DNA of 64,000 nucleotides. It comes from Bolinopsis microptera (Eukaryota; Ctenophora; Tentaculata; Lobata; Bolinopsidae). Position 1 is the stretch's first letter, and every line of letters starts with the position of its first letter. A model generated the notes under the pieces. It searched no databases. It had not been told where the DNA came from and saw only the letters and a list, made by a program, of their open reading frames with translations. Position numbers and translations under genes: made by a program. The stretch covers positions 14,221,167 through 14,285,166 of the forward strand of contig NC_087074.1 in the NCBI RefSeq assembly GCF_026151205.1. Reading direction: 5' to 3'. Positions 9,657-64,000 of this stretch are shown here, piece after piece.

Positions 9657-11140
9657 TTACCCTTGGCCTTGTGGCTCCAAGTTAAGATCTAGACTGTTTA
9701 TATTAACAATGTTTTTTCTCGCACCTCTGTCTCCACGGAGAGAAATCACTGTTGTTCTTAGGATTTCAAAGCGAAGGCGCTTTCTGATGTAACCTACAGC
9801 ATCCGAGTACCTCTGGCCAGTGTGGTACTCCATCTTACTGGCCAGCTTTTTTACCAGTCTTTCAGCTTCACTACCCATTCCACCAGAAGTCGAGAACACT
9901 AAAGGTGTGAAGCTTTCTTTCTCCACTTCAAGAACCCTTGCGTTGTAACATCGCTTTTTCTCATTTTCATGGGACTGGTACATTGCTGGGATCGATTTGC
10001 TTGCATTGGAGGGGGCTGGGGCATGAAATACCCTTACATCAAAATATGCCCTCTCTGAAGCATTCCAAATCGATCTTGCAGAAATGTCCAGCCTAGCTTG
10101 GTCTCCAAGTACTGTTCCCTTAGGCAACTTCAGACCATCAACTGGAAGAAGAACTGGCTCAGTCTGCACATCCTTGCATTTCACAGTTCTCATTAGTTCA
10201 GCAAAGGTGTCTCTCAGCGAGTTGTGCCGCAGTGATACATATCCACCGAGTTTGCAGATGAGCGCATGGTTTGCTGAGTACTTTTGGCCACACGTACATG
10301 TCTTAGGGCTGTCCGTTAAGTTCAGGTTGTACCTGAGAGCTATTGCATCTGAGAACTGTTGTTTGTTCATCAGATATCCATATTCTTTTAAAGGTAGTGC
10401 TGTTAACCAAGCACTTGCCCCTTTCTCAGCAGCTAGTTGGAACATCAACTTTGCCAGTGGTGTTGACTCGAGCTCCTGGCGTATTTCCGCTTGTTTTTGT
10501 CGATAGAAGAGATCTCGTTCAGTTTTTATCTCAGTTTTCACTCCTTTGCTTACTCTCCAGTCCTCTGTGTAGTTGTCTACCTGCTTGAGAATAGCTTCTT
10601 TAAGGGGGTTTGTGGCTCTACATGAGAATTTGTACTCTCGGTCTGCCATGTCCATCATAACTGGTATACCCAATCCTCCATATCTTGGTGGTAGAGCCAT
10701 TATGTTCCTTAGTTCATCAGTGCAGCTAAACAGCCTGTTGATGATAGCTGGGATAAACTCATCGCGTGTTACTTGTTCCAGAGGAGTGAGCCTATCTGCA
10801 ACTCCTGGGGTAGTTCTGCACACATAGTTCCATCTTTTACTAAGCCCATACATGTATGCACTGTATGCTATTTGAGGTTCTCTTGATGCTATATCACTTA
10901 ATTGTTTAAGATCACGACACCATTCTTGAACTTTTTCCTCGATGAAAGCCCCTTTTCCTTCATCAGTTCCGATAAAGCTGCCCAGATATCGTCGACCAAT
11001 ACTTGTCACATTGACATCTGGGAACAAGTTTCTTGCCTTCTCTTCGTGCTCAGGCTTGACTATCACCCATGTCTTGGAAGATTTAGGGTTGTAACCAAAA
11101 AGTGGTCCTTTAATGCAGAGGTTATCCCACCATTTCCTCA
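9657..11140 (-). pseudogene. 5'-truncated retroelement: RT thumb, zinc knuckle and restriction-like endonuclease
   Basis: A 469-codon open frame ends at the TAA at 9657-9659. The same frame continues upstream without a start to about 11140 through LRKWWDNLCIKGPLFGYNP and KTWVIVKPE. That region usually follows the catalytic YADD box of this retroelement type. The YADD box itself is missing, so the copy is truncated at its 5' end. Next come YLGSFIGT and LPPRYGGLGIP, then a C-x-C-x8-H-x3-C knuckle (CTCGQKYSANHALIC) with RHNSLRD. A nuclease-like block follows with RLDISA and AYFDVRVFHAPAPS, then HENEKKRCYNARV. This order (knuckle, then PD-(D/E)XK-like residues) is that of non-LTR elements with a C-terminal restriction-like endonuclease. 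The clade is not assigned. The long intact frame suggests a recent insertion. Confidence 0.75.
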
Positions 11141-11406
11141 GGTCTATTCGATATTCTATATATCTTCCAAAAAACAGGAGGACCGATCTAAAGCTTACTG
11201 CTAAGCAAGCACGTATTATTTTGGTAAAGATGTTACGTACTCTGAGTATTTTTCCTTTCTTTTGTCAGCAGTCAGACACATGTCTTGGCAGCAACTCTTT
11301 GAAGACAGCCGCGTGTCCCAACAATTGAGTGCTATTCTATTTTATTATCTTAGATCTTTCTGCCGCTTACTTTTTATTTTGGTATAGTGGCGCCGTCATC
11401 AGTATC
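11141..11406. other. Short gap between the retroelement and the long-TIR element
   Basis: Open frames here are short and have no recognisable similarity. The 5' truncation point of the retroelement lies near 11140-11160. Confidence 0.4.
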
Positions 11407-41450: not shown

Positions 41451-41956
41451 ACTGTTCTTTAACTTCTCATTTCCAGGAATTTGTCTTCCTTCTTTGGCTT
41501 TAATATTTCACTGTACAAAGTTGTTTCACTCTACTCGGACGAGAGAGAGATAAGGTCCAGGGGTAAGCGTTAATGTAAGCGTTAATGTAAGAATTAGGGT
41601 TTAGACTTTTAGAGAAGGCAAAGGTTCCATAATCCTGGTTGTTGTAAGGCTATTTTAAGAAGTGGGGTAGGGTAGATAATATAGGTAATATGTAAAAAAT
41701 AATCTACTATTCCGCCAGTTTTAAGATGACACGTGTTTAACTTAGTGCTATATTTCACAAATGTATCTCTCTTTTTGGGGCGTTTTTAAGCTTTTCAACC
41801 GCACCTTTGTTTTTTTTATTTGTTACCTCTGATATAGAGAATAAGATGTTGCTTATACTTGCTTATACTTTTATACTTCAATAGCGGGTCTATTATACTC
41901 TTCACAACATCCGACAGTTTCGGCACTCTTACTATTTTACATGTCAGTATAACATA

Positions 41957-42182
41957 ATGCAATGTGCATGGTGCAATGTGAAATGTGCAATGTGCATGGT
42001 GCAATGTGCATGGTGCAATGTGCGATGTGCATGGTGCACGTGTGCAATGTGCAATATGCAATGTGCAATGTGCAATGTGCAATGTGCAATGTGCAATGTG
42101 CAATGTGCAATGTGCAATGTGCAATGTGCAATGTGCAATGTGCAATGTGCAATGTGCAATGTGCAATGTGCATGGTGCACGT
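41957..42182. repeat. 7-bp satellite GCAATGT
   Basis: About 32 copies, some GCATGGT. Six overlapping open frames exist here because 7 is not a multiple of 3 and the unit lacks stops. They are not genes. Confidence 0.95.
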
Positions 42183-42659
42183 TTCCCGGAAACGTCTTGT
42201 CACCCACAACACACACTGCGGTCTGTATGACGTTACAGATTGTGAAGGATCAAAAGGAATCTCTAGTATTCCCACACAATAACCGACCAACTTGCCAAAT
42301 TACGCTCGCCAACCTGCCCGAGTGCCCGCTGCCGGGCCTGGATCAACCTTTTGTTATTTCAAGACAAACTTGTATTTCATGCCGGCTTATATTATATTAC
42401 TGGTTAAATGATTAAATACCTTTTGGGCTGTATCTTTGTCGCGTGGAATGGTGGTCAGCATTCCTTTGTGTGCCTGGTTGCCCCGTCGTTAGCGGCCGGA
42501 ATTTTAAACTTAGATCTCCAATATCTGCTCTTTTGATTGTGAGTCCTCCAGTCCTGTTCCGTTTATACAACATGTGTTATATACTGCAATGTATGCTGTT
42601 GATGTGCTTTGTTTCTAATACCTTCATCGCTTGGCTCAGGCCCAGTCTGTTTATATTCT

Positions 42660-49385: not shown

Positions 49386-49959
49386 TCTATAAGAAGGTTT
49401 GGTTGATCTGTGGTTAAGGTCTTGTTGATTTGTGACCTCGACATTTGATGAATGATGGGGTAATTTGGAGGATAGAAACGATAGCTATCGTGCTGAACAA
49501 CGGTTCTATCCTCCAAATTGCCTCATCATTTGTTTTCAAATTGCCTCATCAATTGTCTTCACATTGCTTTGTCATTTGTCTCCACATTGCTTTGTCATTT
49601 GATTTTGCAACTAAAGTCTAAATTGCCACTGAATAACCATGCCACAAATCTAGTCTCAAACACTTGCCCCATTTAACTAACTTTCTGAGTGTTTACATCC
49701 AGCTCAGCTTTATGTCAGCTATCTCATACATTTGTAAGAACAAACATTGCATTGTCATGTATTCCTGCAGCTTCAATCTGCATTTATCATATATTATGAT
49801 TTATAATTATCATAAAACGTAGTAGAATCACGTGTCGAGCAGTTGTGAAAAGTAGCAGCCTGCCCCCTCTCTCTTGAATAATACATGCGGAGTAAGACCT
49901 GTCAACTGAGTGCTCTTTGGTTTGCAGCATAACTTTGTTCACTTTGTAATCATTTGGCA

Positions 49960-50010
49960 ATGAATCATCAGTTGGATATGACCCAGAATCTTCACACCGA
50001 ATGCTGTCCG
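49960..50010 (+). CDS. Candidate alternative first exon, copy 1 (phase 0)
   Basis: ATG at 49960 follows an in-frame TAA. Seventeen codons, MNHQLDMTQNLHTECCP, end at a strong donor CCG|GTAAGT. No domain is visible. It belongs to the series of phase-0 first exons and has an exact duplicate at 55070. Confidence 0.4.
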
Positions 50011-51149
50011 GTAAGTATACTGCACTAAAAGTAAAATATGCTAAATGCACGTGTGCTAACTGCACGTGTGCTGTAGCTAGAGTTTTGTTTCTCGTTTCTT
50101 GTTTTATGGTATTCTCATTTTGTTTTATCGTGTGATCAGATTGAACCATAGTTGTTAAGTTCGTCGAAGAAATGCGAAAAGTTCGTCCAGTTCGGCACCT
50201 TTTAAAAATTCGTGAAAATTCGTGAAAATTCGTTGCGTAAATTTTCTTGGCATATGTTTTGATTTTATAATGAATGGCTTAGGTGCGATCACTATTACAC
50301 TTGTAAACAAGTGCGCTGTATACAATATTGTATAGCGTGTACGCCGTGTACAATTTGTGGTGAGCAAAATTTAGAAAATTGGTATTTCAATTGTCCAGTG
50401 ATCTGAATTTTGGGAGGTCATTAAAAATTCGGTTAAAGTTCGTCTATTTCGTTACAAAATTCGTCCAGTTCGGCACCTTTTTAAAGTTCGTCCAGGACGT
50501 CCGTAACAACTATGGATTGAACTATCGCTGTCAACATGAATTTGTAAAAATATTGACGACATTATCACAAATTGTCCGATTTTGCAAAAGCACGTGCCTA
50601 AAAATCATAATTACTTAAACTTTTGCTTCCGTCATCGTCCGGCCTGCACTTACGTGCTTACTTAGTTTGGCTGAAGAAGGAAATTTGTCCACTAGTAATC
50701 TTATAAGCTGCATGATACAACGCCCTTACTAAAATAAATGCAACCCTCTTAAATCAAGCAAATTTTCAATCCACCAACTACGTAATGCTCGTTATTAACG
50801 GGTTTGCATAAAATACCCCTGGTACACGTGACATGTCATGTGCATGACGACAGCTTTTTTTATTAGTTCCAATCCTTACTGTGGGCAAGCTTAACATACC
50901 AGAGTTATTGAATATTGTTTCTTTTTATTAGTCTACTTACAGCTCCGCTTTCTGTAAATTGTGAACTGTCTCTTTCATGCTGCTTGAATCTATGCCTTTT
51001 ATGGGTACGATTACGTAGTTTTTAGTTTTTACCCCCTTAAATTTCATCTCACGACATTTTACTGATTTTAATATTTTGCCAAAGAAATATAAATCTGAGA
51101 TTTTTAGACAGTTAAAGGTTGATATGGCGGTTTTTATAAACCGCCGTTA

Positions 51150-54495: not shown

Positions 54496-55069
54496 TCTAT
54501 AAGAAGGTTTGGTTGATCTGTGGTTAAGGTCTTGTTGATTTGTGACCTCGACATTTGATGAATGATGGGGTAATTTGGAGGATAGAAACGATAGCTATCG
54601 TGCTGAACAACGGTTCTATCCTCCAAATTGCCTCATCATTTGTTTTCAAATTGCCTCATCAATTGTCTTCACATTGCTTTGTCATTTGTCTCCACATTGC
54701 TTTGTCATTTGATTTTGCAACTAAAGTCTAAATTGCCACTGAATAACCATGCCACAAATCTAGTCTCAAACACTTGCCCCATTTAACTAACTTTCTGAGT
54801 GTTTACATCCAGCTCAGCTTTATGTCAGCTATCTCATACATTTGTAAGAACAAACATTGCATTGTCATGTATTCCTGCAGCTTCAATCTGCATTTATCAT
54901 ATATTATGATTTATAATTATCATAAAACGTAGTAGAATCACGTGTCGAGCAGTTGTGAAAAGTAGCAGCCTGCCCCCTCTCTCTTGAATAATACATGCGG
55001 AGTAAGACCTGTCAACTGAGTGCTCTTTGGTTTGCAGCATAACTTTGTTCACTTTGTAATCATTTGGCA

Positions 55070-55120
55070 ATGAATCATCAGTTGGATATGACCCAGAATC
55101 TTCACACCGAATGCTGTCCG
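55070..55120 (+). CDS. Candidate alternative first exon, copy 2 (phase 0)
   Basis: Identical to 49960-50010, including the GTAAGT donor, because it lies in the duplicated segment. Confidence 0.4.
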
Positions 55121-56259
55121 GTAAGTATACTGCACTAAAAGTAAAATATGCTAAATGCACGTGTGCTAACTGCACGTGTGCTGTAGCTAGAGTTTTGTTT
55201 CTCGTTTCTTGTTTTATGGTATTCTCATTTTGTTTTATCGTGTGATCAGATTGAACCATAGTTGTTAAGTTCGTCGAAGAAATGCGAAAAGTTCGTCCAG
55301 TTCGGCACCTTTTAAAAATTCGTGAAAATTCGTGAAAATTCGTTGCGTAAATTTTCTTGGCATATGTTTTGATTTTATAATGAATGGCTTAGGTGCGATC
55401 ACTATTACACTTGTAAACAAGTGCGCTGTATACAATATTGTATAGCGTGTACGCCGTGTACAATTTGTGGTGAGCAAAATTTAGAAAATTGGTATTTCAA
55501 TTGTCCAGTGATCTGAATTTTGGGAGGTCATTAAAAATTCGGTTAAAGTTCGTCTATTTCGTTACAAAATTCGTCCAGTTCGGCACCTTTTTAAAGTTCG
55601 TCCAGGACGTCCGTAACAACTATGGATTGAACTATCGCTGTCAACATGAATTTGTAAAAATATTGACGACATTATCCCAAATTGTCCGATTTTGCAAAAG
55701 CACGTGCCTAAAAATCATAATTACTTAAACTTTTGCTTCCGTCATCGTCCGGCCTGCACTTACGTGCTTACTTAGTTTGGCTGAAGAAGGAAATTTGTCC
55801 ACTAGTAATCTTATAAGCTGCATGATACAACGCCCTTACTAAAATAAATGCAACCCTCTTAAATCAAGCAAATTTTCAATCCACCAACTACGTAATGCTC
55901 GTTATTAACGGGTTTGCATAAAATACCCCTGGTACACGTGACATGTCATGTGCATGACGACAGCTTTTTTTATTAGTTCCAATCCTTACTGTGGGCAAGC
56001 TTAACATACCAGAGTTATTGAATATTGTTTCTTTTTATTAGTCTACTTACAGCTCCGCTTTCTGTAAATTGTGAACTGTCTCTTTCATGCTGCTTGAATC
56101 TATGCCTTTTATGGGTACGATTACGTAGTTTTTAGTTTTTACCCCCTTAAATTTCATCTCACGACATTTTACTGATTTTAATATTTTGCCAAAGAAATAT
56201 AAATCTGAGATTTTTAGACAGTTAAAGGTTGATATGGCGGTTTTTATAAACCGCCGTTA

Positions 56260-60590: not shown

Positions 60591-61606
60591 GGTGCCTGTG
60601 CAATCATCATCAGTACTGCGGGAAGATTACCACCATCTTAGAGTTCGTTAGAAGATACGGACTGGGCACCAACTTTATTAGTTCATCTGCTGTTCATCAC
60701 GGCAGATTGCTCCGATAGTACGGGCATGGTCTGATGACTGATCTTCGCCAGAGATTGGAAAGACTTCTGAATAACTTTCTTGTGGGGAATAAAGTTCGAT
60801 TGGATGGTACAGTCCCTTTGTTACCCTTACAATAAAGAAGGGGTCACCGATTAATCATGGCCACCATGGTGACTGATTTGGTTTTGAAATTCATTAAAAT
60901 TTTATGAATATCACTACTTTTAGGCTTCCCTATGACATCTCTGCAAATCTCATTTCTCAGCTATACGCTAAATTCGATGTGATCTATTCAGTGATAGGAA
61001 TTTGTTTTAGCAATGGCGTAAATCCGTACCTTACCAGAGCCTGTGATGTGGATTGCTGAAGTTTTCCTCGATAAAATTCTTCGATCGGATTGATTCCTGT
61101 GCGAGCATAAATTTAAAATTTATTAATCGTTAGAAAATGTTCTAATTGACCCGTACAACAATCACCGGAGAAATGTGCGGCTTTTGTCATTTAGAGAACA
61201 AAATACCTCACATGTTATGCCTGAATATGGTTGTGTCATGTCATGCTAATAGCACCATTCTATAGAACTATAGAATTGCTATCGTCTTTGTTCTACCTGC
61301 CAACACATCTTCCCCGTAATCAATTCTTAGTTTTTCTTATTCGTATATGTTTTACTAGGATGTGCTGCTGGAAAATTAGGATGTGACTGAAAGATATCGT
61401 TTAAGAAAACGTTTATCCGGATTCCATTCGATCATGTATCATCATTCGATCATTAATTAACAGTGTCTAATTTCACGATCAGTAATCAAATATAAATCGT
61501 TCCTCTATATTTTTATGATATATTAATAGTGTACGATATATCCGAATACCGTGTGTCCTCCGGAACATGAGGCTTGTCAACATCAATGATAAGGTATATA
61601 TATACA
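60591..61606. other. Non-coding stretch, nothing recognised
   Basis: No open exon, repeat array or RNA gene was recognised on either strand. Confidence 0.35.
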
Positions 61607-61774
61607 TATCACCGGAGACTCGCGGGCGGAACAAAATATTGCCCGCGCACGCGCGGGCAATATTTCATGTGTCCCCGAGGGCGCTAGCCCGAGGAGGACA
61701 TATTTTCGTATAGCACGGAGGGCCCATCGGGCCCGAGGGCTATACGATTTTTCCGCCCGCGGGTCGAGGTGATG
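61607..61774. repeat. GC-rich multi-branched palindrome (cloverleaf-like)
   Basis: Outer arms ATCACCGGAGACTCGCGGGCGG and, inverted, ATCACCTCGACCCGCGGGCGG enclose three stem-loops. They are ATATTGCCCGCG/CGCGGGCAATAT, GTCC..GGGC-GCTA-GCCC..GGAC, and GTATAGC..GGGCCC..GCTATAC. It stands out sharply from AT-rich flanks. It could be a palindromic mobile element or a structured RNA locus. Confidence 0.7.
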
Positions 61775-62205
61775 TGGATTATATCCACCAGCGTGAGCTT
61801 TTTCTTATAGATATTAGTTATTATTTTAGTTTCTTCAAGAGATCCGTTTTTAATTTAGTTTCACTTTTACTTTCAACATGTTTCTAATGAAATTGATCGA
61901 ACAAATAAAACAGGGGTTACAGTTGATCGAAATTAAGAGTATTTAAGAAATATCAGAGAACAATTCTGACTCATTCAATTTAAGATAGTTCAAGATGCCA
62001 TAACATTAACAGTACGTTGACACTCTACTATTAGTCAAGCTATGAGCATCATATAAGATTAAACTTAATTTAAAAAGTTGCAATTCGGACATAATAATAT
62101 TAACACTATGATGTTAATAAGATAATATTACAGAGCTAGAGAAATATTTAACATAAACAATAAGTAAGATGGTGATCGTTACAGTATTGGGAAACTCTTT
62201 TGTAC

Positions 62206-64000
62206 TTATAGTCCAGGTTTAAGCATTATGAACGCGTATGTCGAGATCAGAGCAATAATCACAGCAGCTATGATAAAACCGGCCCGGTATAAAAGCTTTC
62301 TCGGGTTGTTTAAAGTAAGGATTTCAGACACATTCACAATGTTTTTATTCAAACCAGGGCGCTTATAACGATCCAGTCCAGCTTGGCTCCTATGCCCGGT
62401 GCGGGCCATGATAACACGATCATCAACCCCGTGCTGATTCAAGCGAGTAGTTACAGTGGCTCGTAGCGATCGTAGTGAGAACTTTCCTTTCTCTGAGTCT
62501 AATCCAGCGCGTTCGAAGTACTTCTTCTACTAGTAATTACGTCCGAGAGGTTTCTTAGTTCCGTACCTGTAATATAACTAACATAAAATTCATGAAAAAC
62601 CTTTTGCGTGTGTGAAAATTCAAAAAGAATACAGAAACTATTAGTAAGATAAGATTCAATTCAAATGCTGTATCAAAGAATGCTATGAATTTGGTAAACA
62701 TTTCAACAGGTAAATACAAAATGAAATACGATCATGAGTATTAAAAGACTGCTTAAAATTGTTGGGAGAGAACGTACCATACTAGATCTGTTGATGGATC
62801 TGCTCTCCTAAGAGGATGTTGAAACAGTCTCAGCGTAGAAGAGTTCCTCATTTCTGGAGGGCAGCGGTCAAGATAGAAGTGATAGTAGAAGTAGAACGTT
62901 TCTGTGTCGCTTTTCTTGCTGATATGGGTGACAGTCCTGCGTTTGTGGTGTATGTTTTTCAGACCAGGTTGACGATTTTTGGCCGCGTTCTCAACGTAAG
63001 TTGTGTCCACTGTTCTGTCTCCGATTGTGAAGGTAAAGCTCGCAGGGGTCATGTTGTTTAATTCCGTACCGCCTCTGAAAAATTTCAAAATTAGCACATT
63101 GCATAGCAGTAAATCAAAATTGTAGTTCGAAACTGAGTGCATGAAATGTGAAATTCCAACCAACATGTATGTTGAAGGAGAGCTCAGCTAATGTACCTGT
63201 TACACCTCAGAGTGAGTAGACGGCTTTATTTCAGCATTGGAAAGCGAGGTTATCAAAGAAGAAGATTCGAATGCAAAAGTTACCTCAATGCGAATGTGTA
63301 GGTTGTATAGAATATGAGAGAAGCCAACAGCTGCTCGGGATCAGAAGTGCCAAGTACGCTGAGGAGTCTTGCTGTATCGTCTTCAGACAGGTGGTCAGCT
63401 TGAGTGTTGGTAGGGGCTTTCATCGTGTACTGTTTCTGCTTCACGTATCCGTCATAGACGAGTTGAAAGGGGCGAAATCTTCGGTGCTTAAAGATGTTAT
63501 AATCTTCCCCGATGTTCAGATCGTCACATCTTGCACGTAAGACACGATTCAACCCTGAAGCAGAGGCATTTGTTTATCGCGGTAAATTGTGCCGAATTTG
63601 GTCCAATACCGGAATTATTGAAATACCGGAATAATTGAAATTGAAGTTTGAAAGAGGATTTGAATCAGAGAGAACATGAGCCTAAAATTTACAGAAAAAA
63701 AACTATTGATTGGAGTTAAAAAGAAAGACGACCAAATAATTCCTAACCTCCTAGGAGTCCGTGGAAGGTGACCTGGTCATAATCCTTCCCTTTAGATGCA
63801 ACATAGCGGACGAGACCGTTCGGCATTCTACTCAGTGGCATGACCTCCCAGCGAGTCTGCACCGTGGAATCCTCTTTAGCAAAGTCAGCGAAGGCGTTCA
63901 AAGCTGTCTGATTCTTTTTGAGGGTGTTCTCGGGGACAGTATTTGATAGATATCCCGTAACCGTCTTCTCAAGTTCACGATCGAGGTCAGTGCGAGGAGT
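62206..64000 (-). pseudogene. Crypton/DUF3504-type tyrosine recombinase gene, four exons, two in-frame TAG codons
   Basis: Minus-strand exons: 64000-63748 (continues beyond the window), 63554-63284, 63074-62778 and 62566-62206. All introns are GT-AG and all phases agree. The first exon is a SAM-like N-terminal domain (GYLSNTVPENTLKKNQTALN). The second ends in FYTTYTFALR and the third begins GGTELNNM, giving the box-I ALRGG-x-E arginine. The fourth has LGRNY, then TAG TAG (62532-62527), then KKYFERAGL, FSLRSLRATVTTRLNQ, MARTGHRSQAGLDRYKRPG. This order matches recombinase domains of Cryptons and their domesticated relatives. The His of the usual H-S-L-R is Arg here; the TGHRS His and the terminal Tyr are kept. 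After YKRPG comes a tail ending AGFIIAAVIIALISTYAFIM-LKPGL, a single membrane-like segment. The two stops suggest a pseudogene; sequencing error, polymorphism or readthrough remain possible. Confidence 0.75.

Follow-up and report, generated by a model that had tools for sequence, protein, structure and literature searches.

A Probable Crypton-Type Tyrosine Recombinase Transposon Encoding a Hydrophobic C-Terminal Segment in Bolinopsis microptera

Introduction

The tyrosine recombinase gene described here raises the question of whether an interrupted reading frame with a replaced active-site residue and a hydrophobic C-terminus belongs to the host or to a mobile element. Cryptons are tyrosine recombinase (YR) transposons with direct repeats of 4-6 bp, for which excision as a circle has been proposed (PMC3212892). 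Animal Cryptons have been described with neither a C-terminal domain nor terminal repeats, and non-autonomous derivatives of them have been reported (PMC3212892). The gene lies at the end of a 64,000-nt stretch of the Bolinopsis microptera genome (NC_087074.1, assembly GCF_026151205.1, forward-strand positions 14,221,167 to 14,285,166), which is referred to below as the window. An initial annotation interpreted it as a domesticated, non-catalytic host gene tethered to a membrane, with a recently killed copy as the fallback.

Structure of the Recombinase Gene

The gene is encoded on the minus strand in four exons. The perfect splice-phase continuity claimed for them in the initial annotation was borne out, as they join in phase at all junctions through GT-AG introns:

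63748..64000, minus strand: 3' part of exon 1, with the N-terminal region and the start of the recombinase; extends beyond the window
63284..63554, minus strand: exon 2, from the core-binding region through box I, ending in ...TFALR
62778..63074, minus strand: exon 3, GGTELNN...VENAAKNRQPGLKN...LVW
62206..62566, minus strand: exon 4, the catalytic C-terminal half (RSLR, TGH, LDRY) followed by a hydrophobic tail
62208-62206, minus strand: stop codon TAA of exon 4

The frame of exon 1 extends upstream to an ATG at ~64600, outside the window, giving a full gene of four exons and ~590 codons whose N-terminal part carries a tandem 21-residue repeat. The joined protein matches the Pfam families DUF3504 (E 3.2e-11) and Phage_integrase (E 3e-7), both with scores above the curated cut-off. 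The enzyme is therefore a DUF3504/Crypton-type tyrosine recombinase, as first annotated. Among solved structures, only QRICH1 matches it, and weakly (E 0.054).

Other features were noted elsewhere in the window. Two identical open frames of 163 codons occur on the minus strand at 49787-50278 and 54897-55388, 5.1 kb apart, which suggests that this stretch, and perhaps more, was duplicated recently. A 535-codon open frame (9657-11264, minus strand) resembles, by eye, the C-terminal part of a retroelement polyprotein, and the open frame at 41885-42415 is a minisatellite read as protein, a simple repeat of CNVQCAM units.

Boundaries of the Element and Its Folded Right End

The recombinase gene sits inside an element of 4106 bp, with its right end at ~61602 and its left end at ~65707. 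The left end reads (TATA)TCCACCAGCGTGCGC..., while the right end reads ...CTCCGGTGATATG(TATATATA). Most of the element is taken up by the YR gene; no space for a full reverse transcriptase was seen, the family search having covered the joined recombinase protein. The right end has the following parts:

61602..61773, minus strand: the element's right end, in which three hairpins sit within a closing stem; terminates in GGTGATATG-TATATATA
61747-61706, 61703-61668 and 61666-61635 (approximate): the three right-end hairpins
61784..61810, plus strand: 27 bp of the left end in inverted copy (TATCCACCAGCGTGAGC...), lying immediately inward of the right-end module

The ~170 nt of the right end fold far better than shuffled sequences in subfamily A, to which the window copy belongs (z -10.9), and in its relative B (z -7.9). 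Between A-type and B-type right ends, six base pairs have changed on both sides. Paired cells, both-side changes and the covariation score all exceed those of all 500 shuffles, and controls with slid positions lose most of the signal; the alignment comprises eight sequences of essentially two lineages, so that few events contribute. Searches of the right end and the gene region against Rfam and for tRNAs gave no match, so the folded end does not correspond to a known RNA family or tRNA. The fold may form in DNA and act as a recombination site.

Insertions are bounded by TATA. Of 30 distinct left-end flanks, taken from right-end loci, 29 have this tetranucleotide before the element and one has GATA; TATA follows the right end in all 28 distinct flanks. 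Short direct repeats, a typical recombination substrate of Cryptons, are thus present at both termini; the TATA cores lie in AT-rich sequence on both sides, and for this reason the exact crossover cannot be fixed. One insertion sits within a minisatellite; elsewhere, another array that was read contains a unit in the unoccupied form CTAT-TATA-CCCCC. A plus-strand exon resembling CaMKK protein kinases (L031 ~6245-6400 on C3, just outside the window; best PDB match CaMKK2, E 2.3e-9) adjoins the element, which may be located within or next to a CaMKK-like gene.

Copies and Related Subfamilies in the Genome

Exact matches to the left end number 129 genome-wide (62+67) and those to the right end 130 (60+70), and reversed-pattern controls for both ends gave 0 matches genome-wide. 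On C1-C10, a right end could be paired with 74 of the 89 left ends; nearly all of these pairs fall into two length classes, ~755 bp and ~1.6 kb, and few are long. At both ends the short copies are 92-98% identical to the window copy, whose gene is missing from them; as read from their sequence, they are non-autonomous, non-coding derivatives. The dispersed copies with defined ends expected of a mobile element are therefore present. A pair of ends 4.1 kb apart on C10 was considered as a second coding copy and rejected, being a ~755-bp derivative split by unrelated DNA that contains no recombinase.

A protein search of the whole genome (264.65 Mb) identified coding relatives on C2, C6 (two, head to head), C7, C11, C12 and C13, some of them fragments. 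Exon borders are identical wherever exons are present. Pairwise identity among the copies on C6, C11 and C13 is 98-99% across as much as 2.7 kb, which indicates that they have spread recently. In the B-type copy on C13 the frame stays open for 534 residues, and the two C6 copies share one in-frame stop. For subfamily A itself, the search found one coding copy, the broken one in the window, and a 258-bp fragment. The enzyme that moved the A derivatives has thus not been seen intact, and its sister B could be their mover. The ~130 exact copies of each end, together with the related coding elements, identify a Crypton-type DNA transposon and not a host gene, and the window gene very probably belongs to such a transposon of ~4.1 kb.

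Several arrangements of neighbouring elements were observed. Two near-identical B-type elements lie head to head (L032 3637-10000 and L033), with a brief (TA)n run linking their left ends; extra right-end modules lie beside them. A-type ends likewise abut one another (L056, L066), as if elements integrated at one another's TATA ends. Another terminal-looking sequence, ACCCTTTGCGTGGCGGGTTTATGTTAT, abuts A-type insertions and is also located close to F-type recombinase genes (L025 3475-3521, L073, L054, L067) and is probably the end of the F-type element, beside the same TATA core. Upstream of a tail-less, single-exon E-type recombinase relative, an open frame contains what appear by eye to be filamin-type repeats (L007 1-861).

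The Active Site and the Case for Domestication

Most of the catalytic residues are in place in the window protein: the box I arginine (ALRGG), the lysine of AKNRQPG, the second box II arginine (RSLR), the TGH histidine and the tyrosine of LDRY. The only replaced one is the box II histidine, which is arginine, as initially reported for the HSLR motif. The protein accordingly has R-R-R-Y where Cryptons have the tetrad R-H-R-Y. For this reason, and since the comparison with published Cryptons was made by description, the element is called Crypton-like and not a strict member.

Arginine occupies the box II position in subfamilies A, B, D, E and G, lysine in F, and histidine is kept only in the most distant type compared (H type). 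Because most related coding subfamilies have the same arginine, the replacement is not a sign of decay. In the comparison of A with B, synonymous sites have reached saturation and dN is ~0.25 in the recombinase domain, which points to purifying selection on that domain. Archaeal integrases with lysine or tyrosine at the histidine position have been described (PMC8371274), so the box II change by itself is no proof of lost catalysis, and the recombinase may well catalyze with arginine there.

These observations bear directly on the proposal that the gene is a domesticated one, in which a recombinase fold without catalysis would have acquired a host role at a membrane. Repeated domestication of DUF3504 domains, accompanied by the loss of catalytic residues, is on record for animals (PMC3212892), and the replaced histidine and hydrophobic tail of the window gene fit such a history. 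However, the known domesticated genes have lost the catalytic tyrosine and the second arginine (PMC3212892), both of which the window protein retains. Whereas a domesticated gene would be expected outside transposon ends, this one lies between ends that occur ~130 times, its sister elements are near-identical to each other, and two stops interrupt it. The copy number of the ends and the box II arginine shared by most coding subfamilies, recent duplicates included, likewise leave the annotation as a non-catalytic host gene unsupported, and domestication is regarded as extremely improbable.

Two Stops in the Window Copy

The interruption of the recombinase reported at 62532-62527 is present in the sequence:

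62527..62532, minus strand: TAG TAG, a lesion private to the window copy; the stretch around it is 9 nt shorter than its counterpart in B and D

At this site the relatives B and D have five codons. A net loss of 9 nt and two stops thus coincide in an otherwise conserved stretch, and the pattern was not found in any other locus read. Among the sequences read, TAG TAG is a private lesion of the window copy. Apart from it the frame is open and splice-consistent, as might be expected if the copy were alive and the stops were an assembly error, edited, read through or spliced out. Against this stand the coincidence of two stops with a net deletion and the absence of the pattern from all other loci read, and a living window copy is considered highly unlikely.

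The open remaining frame and the private character of the stops support the fallback of a recently killed copy. The picture differs from the many dispersed truncated copies with random stops that were named at the outset as evidence against the domestication reading: dispersed non-autonomous copies are many, and there are a few coding ones, one of them open throughout. The best explanation as a whole, that the window gene is a single, recently inactivated copy of an autonomous transposon, is held with high confidence.

The Hydrophobic C-Terminal Tail

The last exon ends in a segment of unusual composition:

62218..62283 (approximate), minus strand: codons of the hydrophobic C-terminal segment, about 21 residues, AGFIIAAVIIALISTYAFIML

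The segment stops 4 residues short of the C-terminus, and its 19-residue window has the highest mean Kyte-Doolittle hydropathy of the protein (2.67, the next best being 1.08), in agreement with the first description of this tail. It is found in all three subfamilies that have a last exon, with means of 2.67 in A, 2.62 in B and 2.27 in D. All three contain an uncharged stretch, the best 19-residue window in B including one arginine, and the tails of A and B are identical at 10 of 30 residues. Relatives E and F stop directly after the tyrosine motif. When unconstrained change from A was simulated, a hydropathy of at least 2.27, the value of D, was kept in ~6% of runs at 35% identity. Chance hydrophobicity is thus unlikely, since two lineages keep it, and was set aside. 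The maintenance of hydrophobicity across three diverged subfamilies also makes the tail a trait of the transposon and not of a host gene.

An AlphaFold2 model of exon 4 alone, from a single sequence, placed residues 75-102 in a single long C-terminal helix (block pLDDT ~93 at its centre); this helix is the only high-confidence part of the model, the catalytic part being poor. The hydrophobic helix is a family trait, and it probably serves to insert the protein tail-first into the membrane of the ER or nuclear envelope. Anchoring is here a prediction from hydrophobicity alone, and a membrane-bound recombinase acting on nuclear DNA would be odd. A search of the open-access literature for transmembrane or tail-anchored transposases or tyrosine recombinases found nothing relevant among the titles and abstracts listed, which is weak evidence.

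The main rival to a membrane anchor is a C-terminal helix packed in the recombinase tetramer and swapped between neighbouring subunits. Tyrosine recombinases often give their C-terminal helix to a neighbour, as in Cre, where it is exchanged between neighbouring subunits, and the recombinase has to reach nuclear DNA to act. Yet ~20 uncharged residues with a hydropathy of 2.3-2.7 in three subfamilies are stronger than expected of a packed helix; a moderately hydrophobic stretch just after the tyrosine (NIVNVSEILTL) could fill that role, and relatives E and F lack any such tail. A packed helix is therefore rated as rather unlikely, if a serious contender. The full proposal built on the membrane anchor is itself tentative and held at less than even confidence: a Crypton-like clade may exist in which the recombinase is a tail-anchored membrane protein with an R..RxxR..Y site that acts on a folded three-hairpin right end. 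The tail-anchored enzyme would reside at the nuclear envelope or ER, and its activity would perhaps be limited to certain cell-cycle stages.

Comparison with Known Systems and Proposed Mechanism

The closest described systems are the animal Cryptons (CryptonA; Kojima and Jurka 2011, PMC3212892). As in these, a DUF3504-type tyrosine recombinase is the sole recognisable enzyme, a short repeat flanks the element, and non-autonomous derivatives outnumber coding copies. In contrast to CryptonA, the gene of the window element has three introns, its protein has a C-terminal hydrophobic segment and arginine for the box II histidine, and its right end is folded and accompanied by an inverted left-end copy. 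Since published animal Cryptons are described without a C-terminal domain or terminal repeats, this tail and a conserved right end with three hairpins would be new among them. The domesticated genes WOC, ZMYM2/3/4, QRICH1, KCTD1 and KIAA1958 belong to the same DUF3504 family, but they are conserved host genes that have lost the tyrosine and second arginine, whereas the window gene keeps both and lies in a mobile element. The SSV1-type (R..KxxR..Y) and pNOB8-type (R..YxxR..Y) archaeal integrases (PMC8371274) are also mobile-element enzymes with the box II histidine replaced; the likeness is one of fold and description, the residue being lysine or tyrosine in these and arginine in the window protein, and their hosts are archaea.

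In the proposed mechanism, the recombinase would bind the left end (TATA)TCCACCAGCG... and the folded right end ...GGTGATATG(TATATATA). Excision would follow, the element probably leaving as a circle in the manner suggested for Cryptons (PMC3212892); a circular intermediate is suggested here by this analogy. The excised element would reintegrate at TATA-containing sites. The same ends could let this recombinase or sister proteins mobilise ~100 or more short non-coding derivatives.

For the DUF3504 family, these results imply that domestication does not follow from a DUF3504 match and a changed box II residue alone. For the study of end recognition in animal Cryptons, a compact set of substrates is available in the conserved folded right end, the many short derivatives and the insertions bounded by TATA. 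If the tail truly anchors the protein, this would be the unusual case of a eukaryotic transposition enzyme that is a membrane protein, and would raise the question of how and when it reaches chromatin.
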